Assembly (NCBI RefSeq): GCF_041102775.1
Contig: NZ_JBGCUO010000001.1
Coordinates: 620,001 to 684,000, forward strand
DNA: 64,000 nt
Origin: Alcanivorax sp. REN37
GTDB taxonomy: Bacteria > Pseudomonadota > Gammaproteobacteria > Pseudomonadales > Alcanivoracaceae
Direction of reading: 5' to 3'
Shown here piece by piece: positions 26,792-42,834 of the stretch. Made by a program: the position numbers and the translations under genes. A model generated the notes under the pieces. The model worked only from the letters and a program-made list of their open reading frames with translations. It searched no databases and was not told where the DNA came from. Every line of letters starts with the position of its first letter. The stretch's first letter is position 1.

Positions 26792-27222
26792 TTCGGGTAA
26801 AGAAGGGCCGGATCAATCACCGGCTCGCGGTCGAGAACAAAGTCGCCGTCCTCGGCTTTCCAGTAAAAGCAGTCACGTCGGCCGGTGTGGCAGGCGGGGC
26901 CGGTCTGGTCCACTTTCAGCAACAGCGTGTCGCCGTCGCAGTCCAGTCGCAGCTCCATCAGGCGCTGGGTCTGGCCGGAGGTCTCGCCTTTGCGCCACAG
27001 CGCCGAGCGTGACCGTGACCAGTAGCACACCACGCCGCCGCGGAGGGTCTCTTCCAGCGCGGTGCGGTTCATCCACGCCATCATCAGCACTTCGCCGGTG
27101 TCGTACTGCTGGGCGATGGCCGGCAGCAGGCCATCTTCGTTCCAACGCAGCGCGGCCAGCACCTGCTGCTGCGGCAGGCGGGTGCCGAGCGCGTCTTGCT
27201 CGTGTTGGTGCAGCAGACTCAT
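26788..27222 (-). CDS. hisI: Phosphoribosyl-AMP cyclohydrolase
   Basis: HisI (144 aa) opens the adenine ring of PR-AMP in histidine biosynthesis. The diagnostic metal-binding segments are present: [43 protein letters not shown] and CFYW. It is the stand-alone form with no HisE domain. It overlaps thrS and cysS by 4 bases at each end, outside any his operon, so its expression should follow that of the two tRNA synthetases. Confidence 0.95.
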
Positions 27223-29132
27223 GACGGCATCCGCACGGCATCGCCAAGGCGGGCCACGGCGTCGTCAAGGCTCAGCACTTCGGTGTCGCGGCTGCCGAGG
27301 CGGCGCATCGCCACCTTGCCTTCGGCGGCTTCTTGCTCACCCAGCACCAAGATCAGCGGGATTTTGGCGGCAGAGTGTTCGCGCACCTTGTAGCCGATTT
27401 TTTCGTTGCGCAGGTCCAGCTCGGCGGTGACGCCAGCCGCTTCCAGTGCTTCACGCACCTGGTGGGCGTAGTCATCCACGGCGTTGGTGATGGTGGCGAT
27501 CACCACCGGCACCGGCGCCAGCCACAGCGGCAGGTGACCGGCGTGGTGCTCAATCAGGATGCCGATGAAGCGCTCCATGGAACCGATGATGGCGCGGTGC
27601 AACATGATCGGCCGCTGGCGCTGGGAGTGCTCATCGACGTACTCGGCGTCGAGGCGCTCCGGCATCATTGGATCGAATTGCACCGTGCCCACCTGCCAAG
27701 AGCGGCCGATGGAATCTTTCAGGTGGTACTCGATCTTGGGACCGTAGAACGCGCCTTCGCCGGGCATTTCTTCCCACTGCACGCCGGCGCGGGCCAGGGC
27801 GGCACGCAGGGCATTTTCTGCCTTGTCCCAGTCGTCATCGTTGCCGAGCCGTTTTTCCGGGCGCAGCGCCAGCTTCACCGACACATTGTCGAAGCCGAAG
27901 TGATCGTAGACGCGCATCGCCTGCGCGTGGAAGGCAGTGACTTCCGCTTCCACTTGGTCCGGGGTGCAGAAGATGTGGCCGTCGTCTTGGGTGAAGGCGC
28001 GCACGCGCATGATGCCGTGCAGCGCGCCGGACGGCTCATTGCGGTGGCAGCCGCCGAACTCGGCGTACCGGATCGGCAGATCACGGTAGCTGTGCAGCGC
28101 CGCGTTGTAGATCTGCACGTGGCCGGGGCAGTTCATCGGCTTGATGGCGTAGGTGCGCTTCTCCGATTCGGTGAAGAACATGTTTTCTTGGTAGTTGTCC
28201 CAGTGGCCGGACTTCTTCCACAGCGTGACGTCGAGAATCTGCGGGCCGCGCACTTCTTGGTAACCGCTCTTGCGGTACACCTGACGCACGTACTGCTCCA
28301 CCTTCTGCCAGATCGCCCAGCCGCGCGGATGCCAGAACACCATGCCGGGGGCTTCTTCCTGCTGATGGAACAGGTCCATCTCGCGGCCCAGTTTGCGGTG
28401 GTCGCGACGCGCGGCTTCTTCCAGCCGCTGCAGGTGCTCGTTGAGCTCGGTCTTGTCACGCCAGGCCGTGCCGTAGATGCGCTGCAACTGGGCGTTGTTG
28501 CTGTCGCCGCGCCAGTAGGCACCGGCCACTTTGGTGAGTTTGAAGCCATCGCCCAGTTTGGCGGTGGACGGCAAGTGCGGGCCGCGGCACAGGTCGATGA
28601 ATGGGCCCTGACGGTACAGGCTCACTTCTTCGCCGGCCGGCAGGTCGCGGATGATCTCGGCCTTGAAGGTTTCGCCCTTGTCGAGGAAGAAGGCGATGGC
28701 GTCATCGCGGTCCCACACCTCGCGGCGGATCTCTTCATTGCGGCGCACAATGTCTTGCATGCGCTTTTCGATCGCTTTCAGATCGTCCGGCGTGAACGGC
28801 TGCTCGCGATGGAAATCGTAGTAGAAGCCGTGCTCGATGGTCGGGCCGATGGTGACCTGGGTGTTGGGGAACAGCTCCTGCACCGCCTGCGCCATTACGT
28901 GGGCGGCGTCGTGGCGGATCAGCTCCAGCGCATCGGCGTCCTCACGGGTGACGATCTCCACTTGGGCATTGGCGGGCACGGTCAGGTAGACATCCCGCAG
29001 GGTGCCGTCGACACGCACTGCCAGGGCCTGCTTGGCCAGCTTCTTGCTGATGCGCTCAGCGATTTCCAGACCGGATACCGGTTGGTCGAATTCAAGTGCG
29101 GCGCCGTCGGGCAGCCGGTACGCAATGCTCAT
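27219..29132 (-). CDS. thrS: Threonyl-tRNA synthetase
   Basis: ThrS (637 aa), a class II synthetase. Domains in order are TGS (about 1-60, [15 protein letters not shown]), the editing domain with the metal site [11 protein letters not shown], the catalytic core with [57 protein letters not shown] and [21 protein letters not shown], then the anticodon-binding domain. I start at the ATG at 29132; the frame is open further upstream but that part does not match the family. Gammaproteobacterial thrS usually precedes infC-rpmI-rplT; here it precedes hisI and cysS. Confidence 0.97.
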
Positions 29133-29327
29133 GAGGTGTCGGATCGTCGTCAGTATAGGAGGGAAAATAAGCTCTCGATGGTAGGCAATCAGCCCCGGTG
29201 CTGCAAGGCGGCATGCTGCCGCAGCGGCCGCCGCGAGCCGCACCGTCCGGCGGTTTGCGCGGCAATTTCCTGTTCGCTTTTGGGGCGGCTGGGTATGCTG
29301 TGGGCTCTCCCCCGATGGCATCTTCAC

Positions 29328-31603: not shown

Positions 31604-32842
31604 TCAGGCGCTGCGGCGCAGCACCCGCAGCGCGCCATCACTGTTGACGCTGGCGACGCAATTGCGGCCGCCGGCCTTGGCTTCGTACAGGGCCGCGTCC
31701 GCTTGCTGAATCAGCTTGTCGGCATCGTGGGCGCCGCCAGAGGTGCTGGCGACACCAATGCTGATGGTCACCACTGAGTTACTGCGTGAGCCCAGGTGCG
31801 GAATCCCCAGCTGCTCCACCCGCGCGCGCATGCGTTCGGCAAATACTAGGGCATCTGCCAACCGGGTGCCGCCCAATACCACCACAAACTCCTCGCCACC
31901 ATAGCGGGCCACGAAATCGGTGGAGCGCTGCACCATGGTTTTCGGTACCGATGCGATCGCTTTCAGACACTCGTCACCCTGCTGGTGGCCGTAGGTGTCG
32001 TTGTACTGCTTGAAATAGTCGATATCAAAAATCAGCACGGAAATGGAATCTGGTGCGCCGCGTGACTGGTACTGCATGCCGTGCAGCAATTTTGCTAGGC
32101 GACTGTCGAGGCCACGGCGATTGATGGTGCCGGTGAGGCTGTCTTCGCTGGCTTCACTGGCCAGCGTCTGGTTGGCCTCATGCAACTCACTGCGGTGCAG
32201 GAACAGCAATTGTTCCGACAGGAAGAAGCGGCGCTGTAAGCGCTCCATCACGTACAAGCCAGTCAATGACATCAGACTGCCGCAGGCCATGACTGCCAAG
32301 ACCACCGCGCTAGCGCGGGCATCCAGCGGCTGGAACTGCCACAGCGCGCCGGCGCTGGCGGCCAAGATCAGCAACGTGGTCGGCAGCGCCCACGACATCG
32401 GTACTCGATAAAGGGTGCTGAGCGACAGGATGGCGAGGAACGCCAGATAGAAATAAGTCTGCGCCAGCGGGTGATCGATCACGGTACCCAAATAGATGTG
32501 CGGCAGAGCCACGCACAGCGCCGCTGCGCACAGCAGCAGGTGGGTCAGGCGCGGCATCCGCTGCGCCACCATCAGCACCCCAACAATGCCGAGCACGGCT
32601 ACGAGTCGTGGTCGCCACAGCTCGGCCAGCGCGCTGCTATCCACCCAATATTCCACCAGCGTGGCGGTGCCCATCACCAACAGCATCAGGGCGCTGGCCC
32701 AGGGCAGCTGCCGCAGCGCATCGGCACGCAATTGGCCGCGCAGGCGCGGCTCCAGGTCGCCGGGCAAAGTCAGGTGCCACGGCAGCGGCAGATCGCGGCC
32801 ATCAGGCAGGCTGGTATTGGGGCTGGAATCGGTGCTGTTCAT
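31604..32842 (-). CDS. Diguanylate cyclase with membrane sensor
   Basis: A 412-residue GGDEF protein. Residues about 35-205 contain six hydrophobic helices with no recognisable ligand pocket. The cyclase domain fills the C-terminal ~170 residues: FDIDYFKQYNDTYGHQQGDECL, and RSTDFVARYGGEEFVVVLGG, in which GGEEF is an active signature and RSTD five residues upstream is a product-inhibition I-site. It should make cyclic di-GMP under feedback control. It converges with the M23 gene and is divergent from cqsA across a 305-base spacer containing a large palindrome. Confidence 0.92.
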   Translation of the reverse strand: MNSTDSSPNTSLPDGRDLPLPWHLTLPGDLEPRLRGQLRADALRQLPWASALMLLVMGTATLVEYWVDSSALAELWRPRLVAVLGIVGVLMVAQRMPRLTHLLLCAAALCVALPHIYLGTVIDHPLAQTYFYLAFLAILSLSTLYRVPMSWALPTTLLILAASAGALWQFQPLDARASAVVLAVMACGSLMSLTGLYVMERLQRRFFLSEQLLFLHRSELHEANQTLASEASEDSLTGTINRRGLDSRLAKLLHGMQYQSRGAPDSISVLIFDIDYFKQYNDTYGHQQGDECLKAIASVPKTMVQRSTDFVARYGGEEFVVVLGGTRLADALVFAERMRARVEQLGIPHLGSRSNSVVTISIGVASTSGGAHDADKLIQQADAALYEAKAGGRNCVASVNSDGALRVLRRSA

Positions 32843-32956: not shown

Positions 32957-32981
32957 CAGTGATGGCATTATGCCATCACTG
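32957..32981. promoter_or_regulatory. 25-bp perfect palindrome upstream of cqsA
   Basis: CAGTGATGGCAT (32957-32968), one central T, ATGCCATCACTG (32970-32981). It lies 166 bases before cqsA and 114 before the GGDEF gene. It is flanked on both sides by TGCGCA. A dyad operator for a dimeric regulator is the simplest reading; a transcribed hairpin is the alternative. Confidence 0.65.
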
Positions 32982-33147: not shown

Positions 33148-34419
33148 ATGAGTGCAATCATGCAACGGGGCGCCCGTGCCCGCAAAATGGCGAAAATGCC
33201 GGAATTCATCCGTTCACGCATGGACGATCATTTTATCAATCGTCTACAAAATGAATGGGGAGGCGACCATTTGCTGAAAGGGGCGGTGCCACAACCGGGG
33301 GCCATTGAAATGATCAGCAATGATTATCTGGGGCTGTCCAATCACCCGCGCATTGTGGCGGCTCAGGTGGGCAGTTTGCAGTCCGGTGACAAAAGTGTGG
33401 TGATGTCCGGTGCCTTTTTGAAAGGCGATAACAATCAACGACGTTTTGAGCAACGTTGCGCGGAATGGACCGGTTATGAAGCCGCAATCCTGTGCCAATC
33501 CGGCTACGCCGCCAACGTTGGGCTGATCCAGTCGATCGCTGGGGCGGACATCCCCGTGTACGTGGACATGAGTGGGCACGCGTCCTTGTGGGAGGGGGTC
33601 AACAGTGCCAACGGTCGTGCCATTCCGTTTCGCCACAACGACATGAAACACCTGGCACGGCAGGTGCGCCAACATGGCCAAGGGGTAATCTGTGTCGATT
33701 CGGTGTACAGCACCTCCGGCACTATTTGTCCGTTGGAGGAGTTGGTGGCGCTTGCCGAAGAGACCGGCTGCGTGTTGATCGTCGATGAGTCCCACTCGCT
33801 GGGCACCCACGGCCCGGACGGCGCGGGTTTGGTGGCGGCCGCCGGGCTGCAGGAGCGGGTGCATTTCGTCACCGCCAGTCTGGCGAAGTCGTTTTCCGGT
33901 CGTGCCGGGCTGGTGCTGTGCAGTGGCGAATTTGCCGATTATTTCTGGGTGACGTCACTGCCGGCGATCTTCAGTTCCTGCCTGCTGGACCATGAAATCT
34001 TGGCGCTGGATGCCACGCTGGAGTTGATCCAGCGTGAACACTGGCGTCGGGAGGCGGTGCAGGTGAACGCGGATTTCCTGCGCCGTGGATTGGCGGAGCT
34101 GGGTTATAACGTCACCGCTAGCCAGTCGCAGATCATCGCGCTGGAGGCGGGCACCGAGCGCAGTACTCAGAAGTTGCGCATGGCGCTGGAGCAACGCGGG
34201 GTATTCGGTTCGGTGTTCTGTGCGCCGGCAACACCGAAGAACCGCTCGCTGGTGCGCTTCAGTGTTAACGCTTTGCTGACGCTGTCGCAGCTACAGCGGG
34301 TACTGGCGGTGTGCGCCGAGATCCGTGACGAGGTGGACATGTGGGAGTGGCCGTCCACGCGCCGTTTGGCGCGGGTGCAGCCGGAAATCGAAATGATGGA
34401 ACAGCGCAAGCGCGCGTGA
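33148..34419 (+). CDS. cqsA: CqsA-type alpha-hydroxyketone autoinducer synthase
   Basis: A 423-residue PLP-dependent alpha-oxoamine synthase of the CqsA/LqsA branch, which joins an acyl-CoA to an amino acid or S-adenosylmethionine-derived substrate to give CAI-1-like signals. Segments matching Vibrio CqsA as I know it include ISNDYLGLSNHP, CQSGYAANVGLIQ, VDSVYSTSGTICPLEELV, VDESHSLGTHGPDGAGL, VHFVTASLAKSFSGRAG (PLP Lys247), PAIFSSCLLDHE, SQIIALEAGTER and GVFGSVFCAPATPKNRSLVR. GAGG lies 7 bases before the ATG. It converges on the rhh-cqsS-regulator operon, forming a complete signalling unit. The acyl chain of the signal cannot be read from sequence. Confidence 0.94.
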   Translation: MSAIMQRGARARKMAKMPEFIRSRMDDHFINRLQNEWGGDHLLKGAVPQPGAIEMISNDYLGLSNHPRIVAAQVGSLQSGDKSVVMSGAFLKGDNNQRRFEQRCAEWTGYEAAILCQSGYAANVGLIQSIAGADIPVYVDMSGHASLWEGVNSANGRAIPFRHNDMKHLARQVRQHGQGVICVDSVYSTSGTICPLEELVALAEETGCVLIVDESHSLGTHGPDGAGLVAAAGLQERVHFVTASLAKSFSGRAGLVLCSGEFADYFWVTSLPAIFSSCLLDHEILALDATLELIQREHWRREAVQVNADFLRRGLAELGYNVTASQSQIIALEAGTERSTQKLRMALEQRGVFGSVFCAPATPKNRSLVRFSVNALLTLSQLQRVLAVCAEIRDEVDMWEWPSTRRLARVQPEIEMMEQRKRA

Positions 34420-34425
34420 TCGACC

Positions 34426-34447
34426 GCGGCGCCCGTTAGGGCGCCGC
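34426..34447. terminator. Hairpin between cqsA and the response regulator
   Basis: GCGGCGCCC (34426-34434) and its complement (34439-34447) form a 9-bp stem with a GTTA loop, between the convergent stops. There is no U tract. Confidence 0.6.
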
Positions 34448-34450
34448 ACT

Positions 34451-35467
34451 TCAGCGGCGCAGCTGGTCGAGGCTGTCCAGATAGGCGCGGTAGCTGGAGG
34501 TTTGCCAGTCGTACTCGATGTCCGCCGGTGGACTGTCCACCAAGGCGCACAACCAGGTTTCCTGCTCGCCTGCTACCCGCGTGGCCGGGTGCACAAACTC
34601 CCGCCAGTCGAAATGCTCATCGCCGAACTCTTCCGGCGTCGCCCACAGCCATGGCAACGCCTTGCCGCCGCTCAACTGCTTCAGTACATCCGTCGGTGGC
34701 GCCAACGAGCGCAGCGAGAACAACGCCCGCTGCAGTGATTGTTCGCTGCTCACCAGCAGCCGCTGCAGTTGGCCGTCGGTGCTCACCAACAGGAAGCCGT
34801 CTGGGTCTTCCACGTAGTAGTACTCGACGATGTCGTGCTGGCGCAGCAGCCGATGAAAATAATCAATGAAGCGGCTGTCGTGGAGGAAGTCCGGTGGGTC
34901 CAGCGCCAGCGTAGTCTGCAGCAGCGTGGAAACGTCGGAAAAGTAACGCTGCTGTAGCCCTTCCAGCGTGCGGTTGAGTTTGCCGGTCAGGTCCGGGTCT
35001 TGCTTGGTGAGGAAGTGGTGAATGGTGCCGGCATTAAATGCGTCCACCGCCAGCTTTTCGTCTGCCACGCCGGTCAGCAGCACCTTTTTCACCCGTGGAT
35101 GCTTGAGCTGCTGGCAGAACGCCAGCCCGTTCATTTCCGGCATGTCGTAATCCACCACCACCACAGAAATATCGGCAAACCGCTGGGTGTTGCTGATTTC
35201 CCGCTCGATCAGGGTCAGGTCTAGCCGCAGCGTGCGTTCACCGGCGGCGGCCTCTTGCTGGCGCAGATAGCGGCAGCAGCGTTGGTCGAGGGTGGTGGCG
35301 CGTGCTTGCGCGTTGATCAGCTGCAAGGCTTCGCTGGCAGAAGTGAAGAATCGGCACGCCAAGCGCTCGTCCAGCAGCAGGCTGAAGTTGTCGAGGAAGC
35401 GCTGGTTGTCATCCACCATCAACACCGTGGTGGGATGGAAATAGGGCTGGATACGCGGACTGCTCAC
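34451..35467 (-). CDS. Response regulator of the CqsS system, no HTH output
   Basis: A 338-residue protein. The receiver domain covers about residues 13-165: Asp19-Asp20 in VLMVDDN, the phospho-acceptor Asp106 in VVVVDYDMPEMNG, Thr132 in LLTGVAD and Lys155 in HFLTKQD. Between strands 2 and 3 there is an insertion of about 35 residues (54-97) not found in CheY-like domains. The C-terminal 170 residues have no helix-turn-helix, GGDEF, EAL or HD motif; IVEYYYVEDPDGFLLVSTDGQ near 214-234 recalls a PAS strand pair. It begins with GTG overlapping the kinase stop by 4 bases, so the two are coupled. It probably receives phosphate from the kinase; its output is unknown. Confidence 0.85.
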   Translation of the reverse strand: MSSPRIQPYFHPTTVLMVDDNQRFLDNFSLLLDERLACRFFTSASEALQLINAQARATTLDQRCCRYLRQQEAAAGERTLRLDLTLIEREISNTQRFADISVVVVDYDMPEMNGLAFCQQLKHPRVKKVLLTGVADEKLAVDAFNAGTIHHFLTKQDPDLTGKLNRTLEGLQQRYFSDVSTLLQTTLALDPPDFLHDSRFIDYFHRLLRQHDIVEYYYVEDPDGFLLVSTDGQLQRLLVSSEQSLQRALFSLRSLAPPTDVLKQLSGGKALPWLWATPEEFGDEHFDWREFVHPATRVAGEQETWLCALVDSPPADIEYDWQTSSYRAYLDSLDQLRR

Positions 35468-36768
35468 GTGGCCGGCTCCTTCGGGAAGCGCATTTCAAAC
35501 AGTGTGAACTGGCCTTGCACCGACTCGCAGGCGATGCGGCCGCCGAGGCTTTCCATTACCAGCTTGCAGAATGACAGCCCGAGGCCGTTGCCCTGGTCGA
35601 CGGTATTGGAGGTGTAGAAGTAGTCGAAGATGTGCTTGAGCGCTTCTGGCGCAATGCCGGGCCCGGTGTCCATGAAGGTCAACGTGTTGTACTGCGGGCC
35701 GGTGGCGGTGCGTACCATGATTTCGCCACGTCCGGCTTGGTTGATGCTGTGTAGGGCGTTCTTGATCAGATTGAACAGCACATGGGTCATCAGCAGGTTG
35801 GAGCCGAAGTAGCGGAAATCTTCGCCGCCTTCCCAGTTCACCAGTGCGCGATCGCGGCTGGAGTTGAACGGGAACCGCTCCAGCGCGTGGCGCACAGTGT
35901 CGTGCATGCCGTAGAAAGTGAAGTTGTCGGTCTTGATGCTGCTCTGCTCGGCGCTGAGCAACAGCATGTCGATGATGGTGTTGGCGTAATCAATCTCATC
36001 GCGGATGCTGCGCGCCACATCGGACAACTGATCCAGATGGCCGGCACGGATGCGCCGCACTGGCAGGTTGGCCGCTTCCGCCAGCCGCTGCGCGTTGACC
36101 AAGTCCGGCAGAAAACGGATCAGGCCGTCGGTGGCGCCCTTCATGCCGGCCAGTGGCGTGCGCAGTTCGTGGGCAATGTTGCGGCCCACCGCAGCGTGAG
36201 CGTTGAGGCGTTCTTCCTTAAGCATATTGCTGCTGTGGTTGAAGGTGCCGCCGGCCACTACAACGAAGATGTAGATCGGCAACTGCTGCAGGTAGCGCGC
36301 CACCACTTCCGCATCGACATCGCCGCCGATGGCAAAGCACACCCACGCCAGCAGCGAACCGGTGATGTACAGCAGGATCACCAGCAGCCAATCGTTCACT
36401 GCGATCACTAGCAGGAACAGCGCCGCTAGAGTGCTCATGCTCCAGACTAGGTTCAGGTCATTGCGCAGCAACATGTAGGTGAAGAAAAACGGCAGCGTGT
36501 AGAGCAGTGCCGCCATCCAGTGCCAATAAACCTGGCCCACCAGTCGTGCCGGCCACTGCTGGTAGAAAAACAGCGGGATGCACAGCGCCATGCCCACCGC
36601 CCGCAGTGTGAAGTTCTCGTACGGCTGCGGGAAAAAGTAGTGCCAAACAAAGTAGTAGGTCGGGAAGGTGATGATGCCCAGCCAACCGACCATGCGGGCG
36701 TTGTGACGCGCGTGGTGGGCACTGTATTCAACCGATTTCTGCAGTCGGGCGAGCATGGTGTCGATCAT
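35464..36768 (-). CDS. cqsS: CqsS-like sensor histidine kinase without receiver domain
   Basis: A 434-residue kinase. The N-terminal membrane domain (about 27-175, six helices) carries MVGWLGIITFPTYYFVWHYF and FPQPYENFTLR, very close to the CqsS sensor domain of Vibrio, then FFFTYMLLRNDLNLVWSMS. The HisKA motif is AAVGRNIAHELRTPLAG (His200). ATPase boxes are LFNLIKNALHSI, FMDTGPGIAP and GNGLGLSFCKLV. Vibrio CqsS continues into a receiver domain; this protein stops after the ATPase domain, and a separate regulator gene follows with overlap. It should sense the ketone made by the convergent cqsA product. Confidence 0.92.
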   Translation of the reverse strand: MIDTMLARLQKSVEYSAHHARHNARMVGWLGIITFPTYYFVWHYFFPQPYENFTLRAVGMALCIPLFFYQQWPARLVGQVYWHWMAALLYTLPFFFTYMLLRNDLNLVWSMSTLAALFLLVIAVNDWLLVILLYITGSLLAWVCFAIGGDVDAEVVARYLQQLPIYIFVVVAGGTFNHSSNMLKEERLNAHAAVGRNIAHELRTPLAGMKGATDGLIRFLPDLVNAQRLAEAANLPVRRIRAGHLDQLSDVARSIRDEIDYANTIIDMLLLSAEQSSIKTDNFTFYGMHDTVRHALERFPFNSSRDRALVNWEGGEDFRYFGSNLLMTHVLFNLIKNALHSINQAGRGEIMVRTATGPQYNTLTFMDTGPGIAPEALKHIFDYFYTSNTVDQGNGLGLSFCKLVMESLGGRIACESVQGQFTLFEMRFPKEPAT

Positions 36769-36787
36769 GGTGTGCGGGCAGCCTCAA

Positions 36788-37099
36788 TCAGCGCAGCAGG
36801 TCTAACAGCGCCTGCTGGCGCTGCGGCGCCAGGCGGCGGAAACATTCCAACAGCAGCGCTTCATCGTGGGACAGAGCAGCAGTGGTGCGTTCGGTGGCCT
36901 GGTAGGGCGTGGCGGGCGGTTCTGCCACCCGGCTGCTGGCCAGACCAAGGCTTTCTTCCAGTCGTGCCACCACTTCGGCATTCATGCTGCGGTGATTGGT
37001 GCGCGCCACCTCGGCAATCAAATTACGCACGCCGGGCGGTAGGCGTACCACGAACTTGCCGGCCTGAGTGCGTTCGCTGGGAGTGAGTTTGTGTTCCAT
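36788..37099 (-). CDS. Arc-type ribbon-helix-helix regulator in the cqsS operon
   Basis: A 103-residue protein. Residues about 13-52 form an Arc/MetJ-like ribbon-helix-helix: KFVVRLPPGVRNLIAEVARTNHRSMNAEVVARLEESL, with the strand FVVRLP and the NAE-turn typical of the family. The C-terminal ~25 residues, ALLLECFRRLAPQRQQALLDLL, form a predicted amphipathic helix that may be a docking or oligomerisation element. ATG at 37099 has AGGAG about 10 bases upstream. It ends 19 bases before the cqsS-like kinase gene, so it is probably the first gene of the operon and the best candidate transcription factor of the system. Confidence 0.85.
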   Translation of the reverse strand: MEHKLTPSERTQAGKFVVRLPPGVRNLIAEVARTNHRSMNAEVVARLEESLGLASSRVAEPPATPYQATERTTAALSHDEALLLECFRRLAPQRQQALLDLLR

Positions 37100-37274
37100 T
37101 TCGCTGCTCTCCTGGCTCGCAGGGCGCGTTGCCGCTGCGGGTGACGGGGCCATGGTACACCGTCCAGTGGTGCGGCTCCGGGGCATCCGGACCAGCGTCG
37201 GTCCAAAGGCTCTATTCTAAGCAGTGATGATGTTTGGCAACATGATCAACCCGATCAATAGTAGGCCGCACATC

Positions 37275-38246
37275 ATGAATCTGGGTCGCGTGGACCTGAA
37301 CCTGCTCAAATATCTCGACGTGCTGCTGCGCGAACTCAGTGTCACCCGGGCCGCCGACCTGCTCGGCATTTCCCAGCCGGCCATGAGCAACGGTCTCAAG
37401 CGCCTGCGTGACCTGTTCAACGATCCGCTGCTGATCCGCACCTCCAATGGCATGAGCCCCACCGAACGGGCGCTGGAGCTGCAGCCGCAGGTGCGCCAGA
37501 TCTTGGCGCAGGCGGAAACCATGATGACGCCGGGGGAGGAATTCCTGCCCGACGAGAGCCGCCGCGTGTTCCGCATCATGACCAGTGACTATGCCGAAGC
37601 CACGCTGGTGCCGCATCTGGTGCGGCGGCTGCGGCTGGAGGCGCCCCACGTGGTGCTGGATTTCCTCACGCCATCCGATGTCAGCTATGCCGACATGGAG
37701 CAGGGCCGGGTGGACCTGGCCATTAACCGTTTCAACGAAATGCCGCGCTCGTTCCACCAAGTGACGCTGTGGAAGGATTATTTCTCCTGTCTACTCAACC
37801 GGGGCAATCCGCTGGCGCGGGATTTCAATCTCGAATCCTACCTCAGCGCCCAGCACATCTGGGTATCAAAAACCGGTTTCGGCGTCGGTTTCGGCATGAA
37901 TCCGGAAAAGCTCGGAGGGCTGGGCTGGATTGACCAAGCGCTGGCGCGCATCGGCCGCAGCCGCAAGATCTCGATTTTCACCCGTCATTACCAAATGCCG
38001 GCCTTGCTGGCGATGAATAACGATCTGGTGGCGACGCTGCCGAGCCGGGTGGCGCGGATGCAGGCGCAGAACCCACGGCTGGTGATAAAAGACCCACCGT
38101 TTGTGATTCCGCGTTTCGAGTTGAAAATGGCGTGGTCGCCGCTACTGCACCACAACGCAGCACACCGCTGGCTGCGGCGGCTGATTCAGGAAGAGGCGGG
38201 CAATATCCTGCGCGAGGACCCGGACGAGCGCGAGCAGGATATCTGA
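37275..38246 (+). CDS. LysR-family transcriptional regulator
   Basis: A LysR-type regulator of 323 residues from the ATG at 37275; an earlier GTG at 37224 would add 17. The N-terminal HTH begins RVDLNLLKYLDVLLREL and contains TRAADLLGISQPAMSNGLKRLRDLFNDPLLIRTSNGMSPT, characteristic of the NahR/NodD/LeuO subgroup. The C-terminal effector domain shows LAINRFNEMPRSFHQVTLW. It is divergent from the ribbon-helix-helix gene with a spacer of under 180 bases, so it might act on that promoter, but there is no direct evidence. Its end nearly touches the convergent QueD-like gene. Confidence 0.88.
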   Translation: MNLGRVDLNLLKYLDVLLRELSVTRAADLLGISQPAMSNGLKRLRDLFNDPLLIRTSNGMSPTERALELQPQVRQILAQAETMMTPGEEFLPDESRRVFRIMTSDYAEATLVPHLVRRLRLEAPHVVLDFLTPSDVSYADMEQGRVDLAINRFNEMPRSFHQVTLWKDYFSCLLNRGNPLARDFNLESYLSAQHIWVSKTGFGVGFGMNPEKLGGLGWIDQALARIGRSRKISIFTRHYQMPALLAMNNDLVATLPSRVARMQAQNPRLVIKDPPFVIPRFELKMAWSPLLHHNAAHRWLRRLIQEEAGNILREDPDEREQDI

Positions 38247-39694: not shown

Positions 39695-40471
39695 TCAATC
39701 GCGGCTGAGCCAACGGATCATGCGCCGTGTGATGTCACGCGGCGCTAGTTTTTCCATCCACACCAAAGCCTTGAACGGCGCGCTCACCGGGTGATGCACC
39801 TTGGCGCTGCGCACCGCCTCGAACGCAGCGGCGGCCACATCTTCGGCTTCCAAGTTCACGCCCAAGCGGCGGATCACCGGCGGCTGCCAGCTCTGCTCAT
39901 CCACCATCGGCGTTCGCACGAACGGCGGCATGATGTCGCACACGTGAATGCCGTGGCGCTCCCACTCGATCTGCAATGATTCGGTCAGCGCCCGCACCGC
40001 AAACTTCGAGGCGGAATAGCTGGCGAAGTGCGGAATGCCGTACACCGCCGACGCCGAACTCATGTTCACCACCACCGGTCGTTCTGCGCGCTGCAGCCAC
40101 GGCAGGGCGGCCAGCGTCACCTGCATCAGACCGATCACGTTGATATCGATCAGACGCCGGTGAACCGCCAGTGGAATGTCCTCGAATGGCCCCACGCGCA
40201 GAATGCCAGCGCCGTTGAACAGCACGCGAAGGGTACCCAGCGCTTCGCCGGCGGCGTTGACCGCTGCGACTACGGCGTCGTTGTCGGTGACATCGACGGC
40301 TTGGTGCCAAGCCGGGCGGCCGTCGGCATCGCGCAGTTCAGCGGCCACGTCCTGTAAGGCGGCGGCGTCTTGGTCCAGCAAGGCTAGCCGCCAGCCGTGC
40401 CGATGGAACAGGCGGGCGGTGGCGCGGGTGATGCCGGACGCGGCGCCGGTAAGCAGGATGGTGTCATTCAT
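39695..40471 (-). CDS. Short-chain dehydrogenase/reductase
   Basis: A 258-residue SDR with a Rossmann fold. TGAASGITRATA (cofactor loop; the usual GxG Gly is Thr), DVTDND, NGAGILRVG, the Ser of NMSSASAVYG and the catalytic YSASK are present. It resembles SDRs that sit beside BVMOs in ketone catabolism; it probably interconverts a secondary alcohol and a ketone. The start ATG at 40471 overlaps the hydrolase gene by 8 bases; it is the last gene of a BVMO-hydrolase-SDR operon. Confidence 0.9.
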   Translation of the reverse strand: MNDTILLTGAASGITRATARLFHRHGWRLALLDQDAAALQDVAAELRDADGRPAWHQAVDVTDNDAVVAAVNAAGEALGTLRVLFNGAGILRVGPFEDIPLAVHRRLIDINVIGLMQVTLAALPWLQRAERPVVVNMSSASAVYGIPHFASYSASKFAVRALTESLQIEWERHGIHVCDIMPPFVRTPMVDEQSWQPPVIRRLGVNLEAEDVAAAAFEAVRSAKVHHPVSAPFKALVWMEKLAPRDITRRMIRWLSRD

Positions 40472-41399
40472 GGTGCAAGCCCTGCACATGCTCAGCCATG
40501 CGCAGCAGCGCATCGTCGGCGGCGCTGAGCACGCCGGCGTGCACCGGAAACACATGCCACATGTGTTCATAAACGAAGGTATCCACCACCACGCCGGCGT
40601 CGGCCAACGCGCGGTCCAGCCGTACGCTGTCGTCGAGCAGGATTTCATCGCTGCCGACCAAGATCAGTGTTTGCGGCAGATCGTGCAGTGCGGCCAGCAG
40701 CGGCGACACTTCCGGTTCACTACGTTGGCCGGCGGCATAGTGCTCGGCGCTGCTGTCGAGCCCGCGCCAGTTCAGCATTACCTCCGGCGGTTGCACCGGC
40801 GCGCTGGCGTTGGGGTGGGTCAGGTCGGCCCAAGGCGACAGCAGGATCAGACCGTGCAGGCGCACGTGGTGCTGGTCACGCAGGCGCAGGGCGCAGGCCA
40901 GCGTCAAACCGCCACCGGCAGAGTCGCCGGCCACGGTGATGCGGTCGGCCGGGTAACCGTCGCGCATCAGCGCCAGCACCGCATTGACGGCGTCGTCCAC
41001 CGCCGCCGGGTAGCGATGCTCCGGCGCCAAGCGGTAGTCCAGCGCATAGACGTCGGCACCGCTATCGCGTGCCAACGCACTGGTGATGGCGCGGTGGGTA
41101 GCCGGCGAGCCGACGCAGTAGGCGCCGCCGTGCAGGTAGACCACCACCCGCTCGGCACGCTGGCCGGTGCGGGCGCGGTGTAGCTCGGCCGGTACTGCGC
41201 CGAGCTGGGTTTGTTCGCGCTCAATGCCGCGCGCTGGCAGCGTGGTCAGTGCGGTGGCACGAAGTCCTTTGCGCAGCATCGGCACCGGCACTGCCGGGTG
41301 AAACAGCGGCTGCACCATCAACTTCATCGCGGTGCGTAGTGCAGCGCGTGCCACGCGCTGGGCAGAGCGGGGATCAGCGGGAAGAAAATTCATAGTCAT
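40464..41399 (-). CDS. Alpha/beta hydrolase, HSL-type esterase
   Basis: A 311-residue esterase of the hormone-sensitive-lipase family (family IV). The oxyanion motif HGGAYCVGSPATH and the nucleophile motif VAGDSAGGG are intact, ALDYRLAPEHRYPAA is typical, and the Asp/His of the triad fit ILVGSDEILLDDSV and TFVYEHMWHVFPV. It probably cleaves the ester made by the adjacent BVMO. It overlaps the BVMO gene by 26 bases and the SDR gene by 8. Confidence 0.93.
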   Translation of the reverse strand: MTMNFLPADPRSAQRVARAALRTAMKLMVQPLFHPAVPVPMLRKGLRATALTTLPARGIEREQTQLGAVPAELHRARTGQRAERVVVYLHGGAYCVGSPATHRAITSALARDSGADVYALDYRLAPEHRYPAAVDDAVNAVLALMRDGYPADRITVAGDSAGGGLTLACALRLRDQHHVRLHGLILLSPWADLTHPNASAPVQPPEVMLNWRGLDSSAEHYAAGQRSEPEVSPLLAALHDLPQTLILVGSDEILLDDSVRLDRALADAGVVVDTFVYEHMWHVFPVHAGVLSAADDALLRMAEHVQGLHHE

Positions 41400-42834
41400 C
41401 GGCTTTTACCGTGCGGATGGCTTGGCGGTAACGGAACGTAAAGCCCGGCCAGTTATTGGTATTTTTACCGCTCTCGTTCTTGTACCAGCTGGTGCAGCCC
41501 TGGTCCCAGACGGTGGCGCGGATTTGTTCTTGCAATGCAGCATTGAAGGATGCCTGCACGGTCTCGCGCACTTCAATGGCACCGGCGCCAGTCTGCTCCA
41601 TGCTGTCCAGACAGCTCATAACGTGGTTGAACTGGCTTTCCAGCATGTAAACGATGGAGTTGTGGCCGAGGTTGGTGTTCGGGCCGTAGAGCATGAACAG
41701 GTTCGGGAAGCCGTGCACGGTCATGCCGTAATAGGCTTCGGCGCCGTCGCGCCAAGCCTGATTCAAGTCCACGCCGTCGCGGCCAGTAATGCGCATCGGC
41801 GCCAAGAAGTCGGTGGCCTGGAAACCGGTGCCGTAGATGATCACATCGAACGCGTGCTCGCGGCCGTCGGCGGTGGCGAGACCCTTCTCGGTGAAGCCCT
41901 GGATGCGGTCGGTAACGATGCTGGCTTTGTCTTGGGCCAGAGCCTCAAAGTAGTCGTTGCTGAGCAAGATGCGCTTGCAGCCGATGGGGTAGTCCGGCGT
42001 CAACTGTGCGCGTTTGGTGGCATCTTTCACCGCGCGGCGCATGTGCTGCTGCGCGCGCAGACGGTAGATCGCCATCGCTTTGTCGAAGCCGCTAAAGCCG
42101 AATACCCGCGTTTCGTAGAAGCTGTAGATGGCGCCGCGGCTGAATTTCTGTATTGCCGGCAGCTTGTCAAACAGCTTCTGCTCCAGTGGCGTGTAGGCGC
42201 GGTCTGGCTTGGGCAGCACATAGGCAGCGGAGCGTTGGAACAGCGTCAAGGATGCCACCTTATCCATGATCGCCGGCACGAACTGGATCGCGCTGGCGCC
42301 GGTGCCGATCACGCCGACCCGCTTGCCGCGCAGGTCCACATCGTGATCCCAGCGGGCGGAATGGAAGCGGCTGCCGGTGAAGCGTTCTTCGCCGCCAAGC
42401 TGCGGCATGGCCGGGCGGTTCAACTGGCCCGTGGCGGCGATCACCAGACGGCTGTCGTAGTGCTCGCCGTTGCGGGTGGTCACGCTCCAGCGCTGGCTGG
42501 CGTCGTCGTAGCGAGCCTGTTCCACTTCACAGCCGAAACGGACCTTGGGGTAAACGTTGTACTTGCGCGCGCAGTGGCGCAGGTAGGCAAAGATTTCCGC
42601 CTGCGGGGCAAAGCGCCGGGTCCAGTTGGGGTTGGGCTCAAACGAGAACGAATAAAGGTTGGAAGGGACATCGCAGGCGGCACCGGGGTAGGTGTTTTCG
42701 CGCCAGCAGCCGCCGACGTCCTCGCCTTTTTCAAGAATGACAAAGGAATCAATACCGGCCTGCATCAACCGGATGGCCATGCCAACGCCGCCGAAACCAG
42801 CGCCGATGATGACCGCCTCAAGTTTGTTATTCAT
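41374..42834 (-). CDS. Baeyer-Villiger monooxygenase (flavoprotein)
   Basis: A 486-residue FAD- and NADPH-dependent monooxygenase. GAGFGGVGMAIRLMQAG is the FAD loop, GGCWRENTYPGAACDVPS is a type I BVMO segment, FTGSRFHSARWD is the BVMO fingerprint FxGxxxHxxxW, and VGVIGTGASAIQF is the NADPH loop. It inserts oxygen next to a ketone, giving an ester. It is the first gene of the BVMO-hydrolase-SDR operon, divergent from an AraC regulator across 115 bases. The ketone substrate is unknown; alkyl methyl ketones from subterminal alkane oxidation are plausible. Confidence 0.93.
   Translation of the reverse strand: MNNKLEAVIIGAGFGGVGMAIRLMQAGIDSFVILEKGEDVGGCWRENTYPGAACDVPSNLYSFSFEPNPNWTRRFAPQAEIFAYLRHCARKYNVYPKVRFGCEVEQARYDDASQRWSVTTRNGEHYDSRLVIAATGQLNRPAMPQLGGEERFTGSRFHSARWDHDVDLRGKRVGVIGTGASAIQFVPAIMDKVASLTLFQRSAAYVLPKPDRAYTPLEQKLFDKLPAIQKFSRGAIYSFYETRVFGFSGFDKAMAIYRLRAQQHMRRAVKDATKRAQLTPDYPIGCKRILLSNDYFEALAQDKASIVTDRIQGFTEKGLATADGREHAFDVIIYGTGFQATDFLAPMRITGRDGVDLNQAWRDGAEAYYGMTVHGFPNLFMLYGPNTNLGHNSIVYMLESQFNHVMSCLDSMEQTGAGAIEVRETVQASFNAALQEQIRATVWDQGCTSWYKNESGKNTNNWPGFTFRYRQAIRTVKADDYEFSSR

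Follow-up and report, generated by a model that had tools for sequence, protein, structure and literature searches.

Does the quorum-sensing locus of Alcanivorax sp. REN37 represent a new kind of alpha-hydroxyketone circuit with a DNA-binding protein of its own, or a known kind set among older neighbours? The locus lies in a 64,000-nucleotide stretch of DNA (the window), which is part of a 3.02-Mb genome that is 99.7% complete. The original prediction had described a CqsA/CqsS-type module of four complete genes at 33148..37099: a synthase, a receiver protein, a kinase and a ribbon-helix-helix (RHH) regulator. Read from the sequence, the locus is very probably a Legionella quorum sensing (Lqs)-type system, a kind already known, in the family Alcanivoracaceae. 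The best explanation of the whole, to which we give a probability of about 0.7, is an Lqs-type system in which an AmrZ-like RHH protein is likely to tune cqsA, a neighbouring diguanylate cyclase gene, or both.

The four genes are open and complete as predicted, based on the list of open reading frames (ORFs) with their translations and on domain and family matches. The cqsA/lqsA-type alpha-hydroxyketone autoinducer synthase gene (33148..34419, + strand, 423 aa) converges on the other three, with 31 bp between the stop codons. These are an lqsR-like response regulator gene (34451..35467, - strand, 338 aa), an lqsS-like membrane sensor histidine kinase gene (35464..36768, - strand, 434 aa), and an AmrZ-like RHH regulator gene (36788..37099, - strand, 103 aa). 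The genes for kinase and receiver protein share 4 bp, and the RHH gene is separated from the kinase gene by 19 bp; co-transcription of the three is predicted. The RHH gene sits within an ORF at 36788-37186 (-), and the likely ATG ends at 37099, giving the 103-aa protein. The gene set reaches past these coordinates to a diguanylate cyclase gene (31604..32842, - strand; GGDEF domain, E 2.3e-45), which is divergent from the synthase gene. On the other side, divergent from the RHH gene, is a LysR-type regulator gene (37224..38246, + strand; LysR domains), a family-wide neighbour whose true start may be downstream, near 37275. A promoter and terminator scan gave a yield no higher than in shuffles.

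The prediction of a synthase, sensor kinase and regulator for an alpha-hydroxyketone signal at one locus was upheld. The synthase scored 584.9 bits against NCBIfam NF005526, 'alpha-hydroxyketone-type quorum-sensing autoinducer synthase' (cut-off 428), and resembles the solved synthase of cholera autoinducer-1 (CAI-1), PDB 3hqt (E 2.3e-110); its relatedness to Vibrio CqsA is about equal, and its pyridoxal phosphate-binding lysine is probably K247. The kinase, with membrane helices judged by eye, has HisKA and HATPase_c domains only, with the histidine at residue 200 and no fused receiver; therefore, a LuxU-type relay is not called for. The receiver protein has a Response_reg domain and matches PDB 6sy9 ('Response regulator') across residues 9-334 (E 8.2e-64), which we take to be LqsR of Legionella. 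The locus thus holds a CqsA/LqsA-type synthase, a receiver-less membrane sensor kinase and an LqsR-type regulator clustered with both of their genes, and the hybrid kinase with fused receiver by which Vibrio CqsS is recognised was not found here. The CqsA label of the original prediction stands for the synthase; kinase and regulator follow the Lqs layout and not that of Vibrio CqsS.

Published work is cited here from excerpts of each paper. The phospho-acceptor of LqsR is given as D108 (PMC3376566), and the residue that aligns with it, D106, is probably the acceptor in the LqsR-like protein. Some sensor positions are tied to ligand choice in the same excerpt. By a gapless count back from the histidine, the kinase has Y166/F168/A172 (I166/F168/A172 in LqsS) and T175/F176 (T175/L176 in LqsS). 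The fourth-helix pair depends on the offset, being S110/T113 with the CqsS offset and M111/L114 with the LqsS offset, and no conclusion is drawn on the ligand. A search for a second, LqsT-like sensor in the genome returned 14 other matches, the best of 45 bits and to the kinase core. No LuxI-type synthase exceeded the cut-off among the 46 family genomes described below, with weak matches in the genome of the window (21.4 bits, cut-off 24) and in G007.

Legionella carries lqsA, lqsR and lqsS, and homologues of lqsA and lqsS, some with lqsR, are described in Ralstonia, Nitrococcus, Burkholderia and Polaromonas (excerpt of PMC3376566), while Janthinobacterium carries jqsA, jqsS and jqsR (excerpts of PMC3566124 and PMC5080296). 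With an LqsR-like regulator and such clusters already on record, the expectation that the output should differ from both known systems was not borne out. The locus resembles L. pneumophila Lqs in its cluster of a synthase, a receiver-less six-helix sensor kinase (the histidine is His200 in each) and an LqsR-like regulator. The two differ in that hdeD lies between lqsR and lqsS in Legionella, whereas here these genes overlap without hdeD, the AmrZ-like gene is in front of lqsS, and the cyclase gene is divergent from the synthase gene. Janthinobacterium quorum sensing (JQS) is likewise a cluster of these three gene types from outside Legionella, but there, as far as the excerpts go, jqsS adjoins jqsA, whereas here lqsR adjoins cqsA. 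The window's cqsA-cyclase region lacks TTGAN6/7TCAA, the motif reported for Janthinobacterium autoinducer-1 (JAI-1); as a candidate quorum-sensing operator this motif was rejected, with one match each in L003 and L005, at the cyclase end, among 12 such regions. Vibrio CqsA/CqsS shares a homologous synthase and the six-helix sensor class, but CqsS is described as a hybrid kinase feeding LuxU/LuxO (excerpt of PMC3376566), whereas here a separate LqsR-like regulator is present.

In the circuit so composed, the synthase would make a ketone like CAI-1 or Legionella autoinducer-1 (LAI-1), which the LqsS-like kinase would sense with its membrane domain. The kinase would then pass phosphate to or from the LqsR-like regulator at D106. 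The output part of the regulator does not match a DNA-binding domain of recognised type. An Lqs locus outside pathogens would be useful for studying LqsR output because this output has been described only as a putative nucleotide-binding domain (excerpt of PMC11237717).

Distribution separates the lqs genes from their neighbours. In a sample of 46 genomes of the family (G000-G045, genera g1-g8, with the window's genome being G000 of genus g1), a full-length LqsR-like protein was found in 13 genomes, and CqsA exceeded its cut-off in the identical set. The RHH gene occurs in 44 of the 46, the LysR gene in 45 and the cyclase gene in 43. In 30 of the 33 genomes without lqs (lqs-minus), the RHH and cyclase genes adjoin with a gap of 96-195 bp; of the three exceptions, two (G012 and G020) lack an RHH match and the third, G017, has an RHH gene but lacks a cyclase match, with assemblies 86, 64 and 86% complete for G012, G020 and G017, respectively. 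In 12 of the 13 lqs-plus genomes a distance of 3.9-4.3 kb, within which the LqsR-like gene lies, separates the two genes, and in the remaining one, G011, they are on different contigs.

An rpoB/rpoC tree, with 12 genomes from other families as its root, unites the eight lqs-minus rows sampled from genera g3 and g8 in a single clade (support 100) and places the other 11 rows, lqs-plus except for G017, in a second (support 91, below the starred level), two rows of which are under half filled. A single gain or a single loss of the lqs block within the family would explain the distribution, and the tree is compatible with both. ThrS was rejected as a species marker owing to signs of transfer, PheS/PheT, not seen next to thrS in the 21 family loci, were dropped as well, and rpoB/rpoC was taken instead. 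As regards thrS itself (27219-29138 in the window), the proteins of G008, G023, G035 and G041 (g3, g8) are 84-85% identical to that of the window, other g3/g8 matches are 66-68% identical, and G073 of another family is 74% identical, so that horizontal transfer of thrS is possible. The pheT gene adjoins thrS in none of 21 family loci and in 11 of 13 loci of other families.

The nearest named loci by the LqsR-like protein (L002-L011) belong to Alcanivorax, Alcanivoracaceae and one Gammaproteobacteria record, and a joined CqsA/LqsR/LqsS tree groups the family's 13 rows against seven outside rows (support 99). Among ten loci outside the family retrieved with the LqsR-like query (L012-L021), four have adjoining kinase, LqsR-like and CqsA genes (L012, L013, L014 and L018). 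Across the class, an LqsR-like match at E <=1e-20 was found in 25 of 369 sampled genomes, including that of the window. Of 29 class-level loci (L102-L130, flanks of up to 1.5 kb), 18 have a clear LqsS-like kinase, one more has a kinase at 50 bits, and three have CqsA. Eight plasmid records with a related synthase, all below 60% identity, are uninformative on origin. In Trinickia terrae (L013, 8595-11793), the lqs cluster is accompanied on the opposite strand by another pair of LqsR-like and LqsS-like genes. The LqsR-like genes of L015, L016 and L019 have no CqsA within the fetched stretch; no kinase was found in the L015 and L016 stretches, and a divergent LqsS-like kinase is present in Hyphomicrobium L019. 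Such genes are possibly eavesdroppers or serve other inputs.

What, then, is the RHH protein, and does it touch the circuit? Its domain is Arc/RHH (PF03869), and its best solved match is AmrZ of Pseudomonas (PDB 3qoq, E 3.4e-13), with a weaker match to Arc (PDB 1u9p, E 6.8e-5). AmrZ contacts two GGC half-sites, separated by a five-base A/T-rich linker, through Lys18, Val20 and Arg22, and represses its own gene (excerpt of PMC3325190). The RHH protein carries the domain of the AmrZ family, and all 39 distinct homologues examined retain the K/V/R contact residues. Pseudomonas AmrZ and the protein here have in common the RHH domain, the three contact residues and similar length (108 and 103 aa), a comparison that covers the RHH domain, as the solved AmrZ chain comprises 69 residues; DNA binding here is predicted. 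Candidate GGC-N5-GCC sites may be a further parallel, and another is a diguanylate cyclase gene, be it neighbour or target: excerpts describe repression of the cyclase gene adcA by AmrZ in P. aeruginosa (PMC3946381) and many genes for cyclic di-GMP (c-di-GMP) under AmrZ control in P. fluorescens (PMC5792552). The window's cyclase has GGEEF and RSTD at the spacing of an inhibitory site. Among 44 distinct matched cyclase stretches from relatives, counting copies of the window's own, GGEEF is present in 37, 10 of these with RxxD, and seven are off-pattern. One paper on c-di-GMP in A. borkumensis deals with the GGDEF-EAL protein ABO_2691 (PMC6440734).

Between the cyclase gene and cqsA lies a 25-bp palindrome, CAGTGATGGCATTATGCCATCACTG (32957..32981, no strand assigned), with the core GGC-ATTAT-GCC in the GGC-N5-GCC layout of AmrZ. 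At 3 mismatches, nothing else in the window matches its 19-base centre; the palindrome itself scores on both strands, and two matches of that looser kind were reached in 5 of 100 shuffles. Cyclase-cqsA regions were available from 12 of the 13 lqs-plus genomes (G006 was not covered). The six of genus g1 match the palindrome at 0-2 mismatches, each beating 200 of 200 shuffles, one of the six being the window's own region, which defines the pattern. Of the six regions outside g1, L009 and L007 were equalled by 0.025 and 0.05 of shuffles. Between lysR and the RHH gene, sites of the window pattern at 0.02 or better occur in 18 of 25 regions from lqs-minus genomes and in 4 of 12 from lqs-plus genomes. 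The commonest dyad in the 25 lqs-minus RHH promoters, found without use of the window, is TGGCA-N3-TGCCA (13 of 25; maximum 2 in 100 shuffle rounds), and a matrix built from its seven distinct sites ranks the window's palindrome first in the 64 kb. Strict GGC-N5-GCC was present in 16 of these 25 regions (shuffle mean 0.85, maximum 4). Elsewhere in the genome, the second-best match to the palindrome centre (L132 1501-1519; G000:C1:1448042-1448060) has 1 mismatch and is flanked by LysR-like and HTH-like ORFs, named by eye.

AmrZ control of cqsA or of the cyclase gene, linking quorum sensing to c-di-GMP, is possible because the RHH protein is AmrZ-like with K/V/R kept, the palindrome has an AmrZ-like layout, and the dyad recurs in lqs-minus RHH promoters. 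Under the explanation we prefer, the family would have seen a single gain or loss of the lqs block, at a site flanked by the cyclase gene and an AmrZ-like gene that is older than the block. This would be why the AmrZ-like gene precedes lqsS-lqsR in lqs-plus genomes. The cyclase gene would share the cqsA promoter region in the window, with the palindrome there as the putative operator, and the AmrZ-like protein would tune cqsA and/or the cyclase, joining cell density to c-di-GMP. That the AmrZ-like protein acts at the palindrome itself is close to an even call, slightly on the doubtful side. The fullest version, in which the lqs block sits inside an amrZ-cyclase pair, the AmrZ-like gene heads the sensor-regulator operon, the cyclase shares a promoter region with the synthase, and the AmrZ-like protein directly controls both cqsA and c-di-GMP synthesis, is a tentative proposal with the odds clearly against it.

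Several observations weigh against AmrZ control. Four of the six cqsA regions outside g1 are not above shuffles. For strict GGC-N5-GCC the counts are 2 of 12 at cqsA (shuffle mean 0.60, maximum 3) and 2 of 12 in lqs-plus RHH regions (shuffle mean 0.56, maximum 3), neither of them above shuffles. The window's own RHH promoter lacks a palindrome-like site (8 mismatches), the lead of the palindrome in the matrix ranking is narrow (10.9 vs 10.3 for the next site), and the genome as a whole holds few near matches (19 places at 3 mismatches vs 10 for a reversed control). The lqs-minus promoters are moreover related sequences, mostly of one genus. The rival reading is a plain Lqs system, with the AmrZ-like and cyclase genes as mere bystanders kept by descent and a palindrome that has nothing to do with them. 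The lack of intact half-sites above chance at cqsA, the site-less RHH promoter and the pairing of the RHH and cyclase genes without lqs in 30 of 33 genomes all fit it, but the close matches in six g1 regions and the resemblance of the palindrome to an independently found dyad do not; we consider it a serious contender with chances appreciably below even.

The dyad of lqs-minus relatives lies between divergent lysR and RHH genes, and the palindrome could instead serve as a LysR box, in which case cqsA and the cyclase would be under the control of the LysR-type regulator encoded nearby. The LysR-box form is T-N11-A, and T-GGCANNNTGCC-A in the palindrome core fits it. In G017 (2 mismatches) and G011 (4), however, lysR and the RHH gene are 1.7-1.9 kb apart and the best site, for which no chance control was made, is directly upstream of the RHH gene; no palindrome-like site was seen in G030 and G012. 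We regard a LysR box as unlikely.

The original prediction saw in the RHH protein the system's own small DNA-binding protein, that is, a dedicated output regulator. The 19-bp gap to lqsS would suit such a role, as would the fact that 12 of 13 lqs-plus genomes have the RHH gene upstream of lqs, but the RHH gene is present in 44 family genomes against 13 for cqsA, and the RHH model had no match in the ten loci outside the family (L012-L021) or in the 29 class-level loci with their 1.5-kb flanks. The proposed co-occurrence within the family thus holds for LqsR and CqsA and fails for RHH. Linkage to the cyclase in lqs-minus genomes rules out the RHH gene as lqs-specific and makes a dedicated output very improbable; the protein may still act on cqsA. 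A Vibrio-type circuit whose signal runs to a LuxU/LuxO-like relay encoded at another site deserves hardly any credence: the synthase is about equally related to Vibrio CqsA, and luxU and luxO were not searched genome-wide, but the kinase lacks a fused receiver and its gene overlaps that of an LqsR-like regulator.

These results correct the idea of a dedicated RHH output and add a family that degrades oil in the sea to those with ketone quorum sensing. Among the papers listed by a literature search, with most subscription journals outside it, none joins Alcanivorax or Alcanivoracaceae with lqs or cqs genes. If true, direct AmrZ control of both cqsA and c-di-GMP synthesis would wire ketone quorum sensing to biofilm control locally in these oil degraders. 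Whether quorum sensing, an AmrZ-type regulator and c-di-GMP are linked is testable, with lqs-plus and lqs-minus relatives as a natural comparison. Beside the locus, at 39695-42834, is a run of dehydrogenase-, esterase- and flavin monooxygenase-like ORFs, named by eye.

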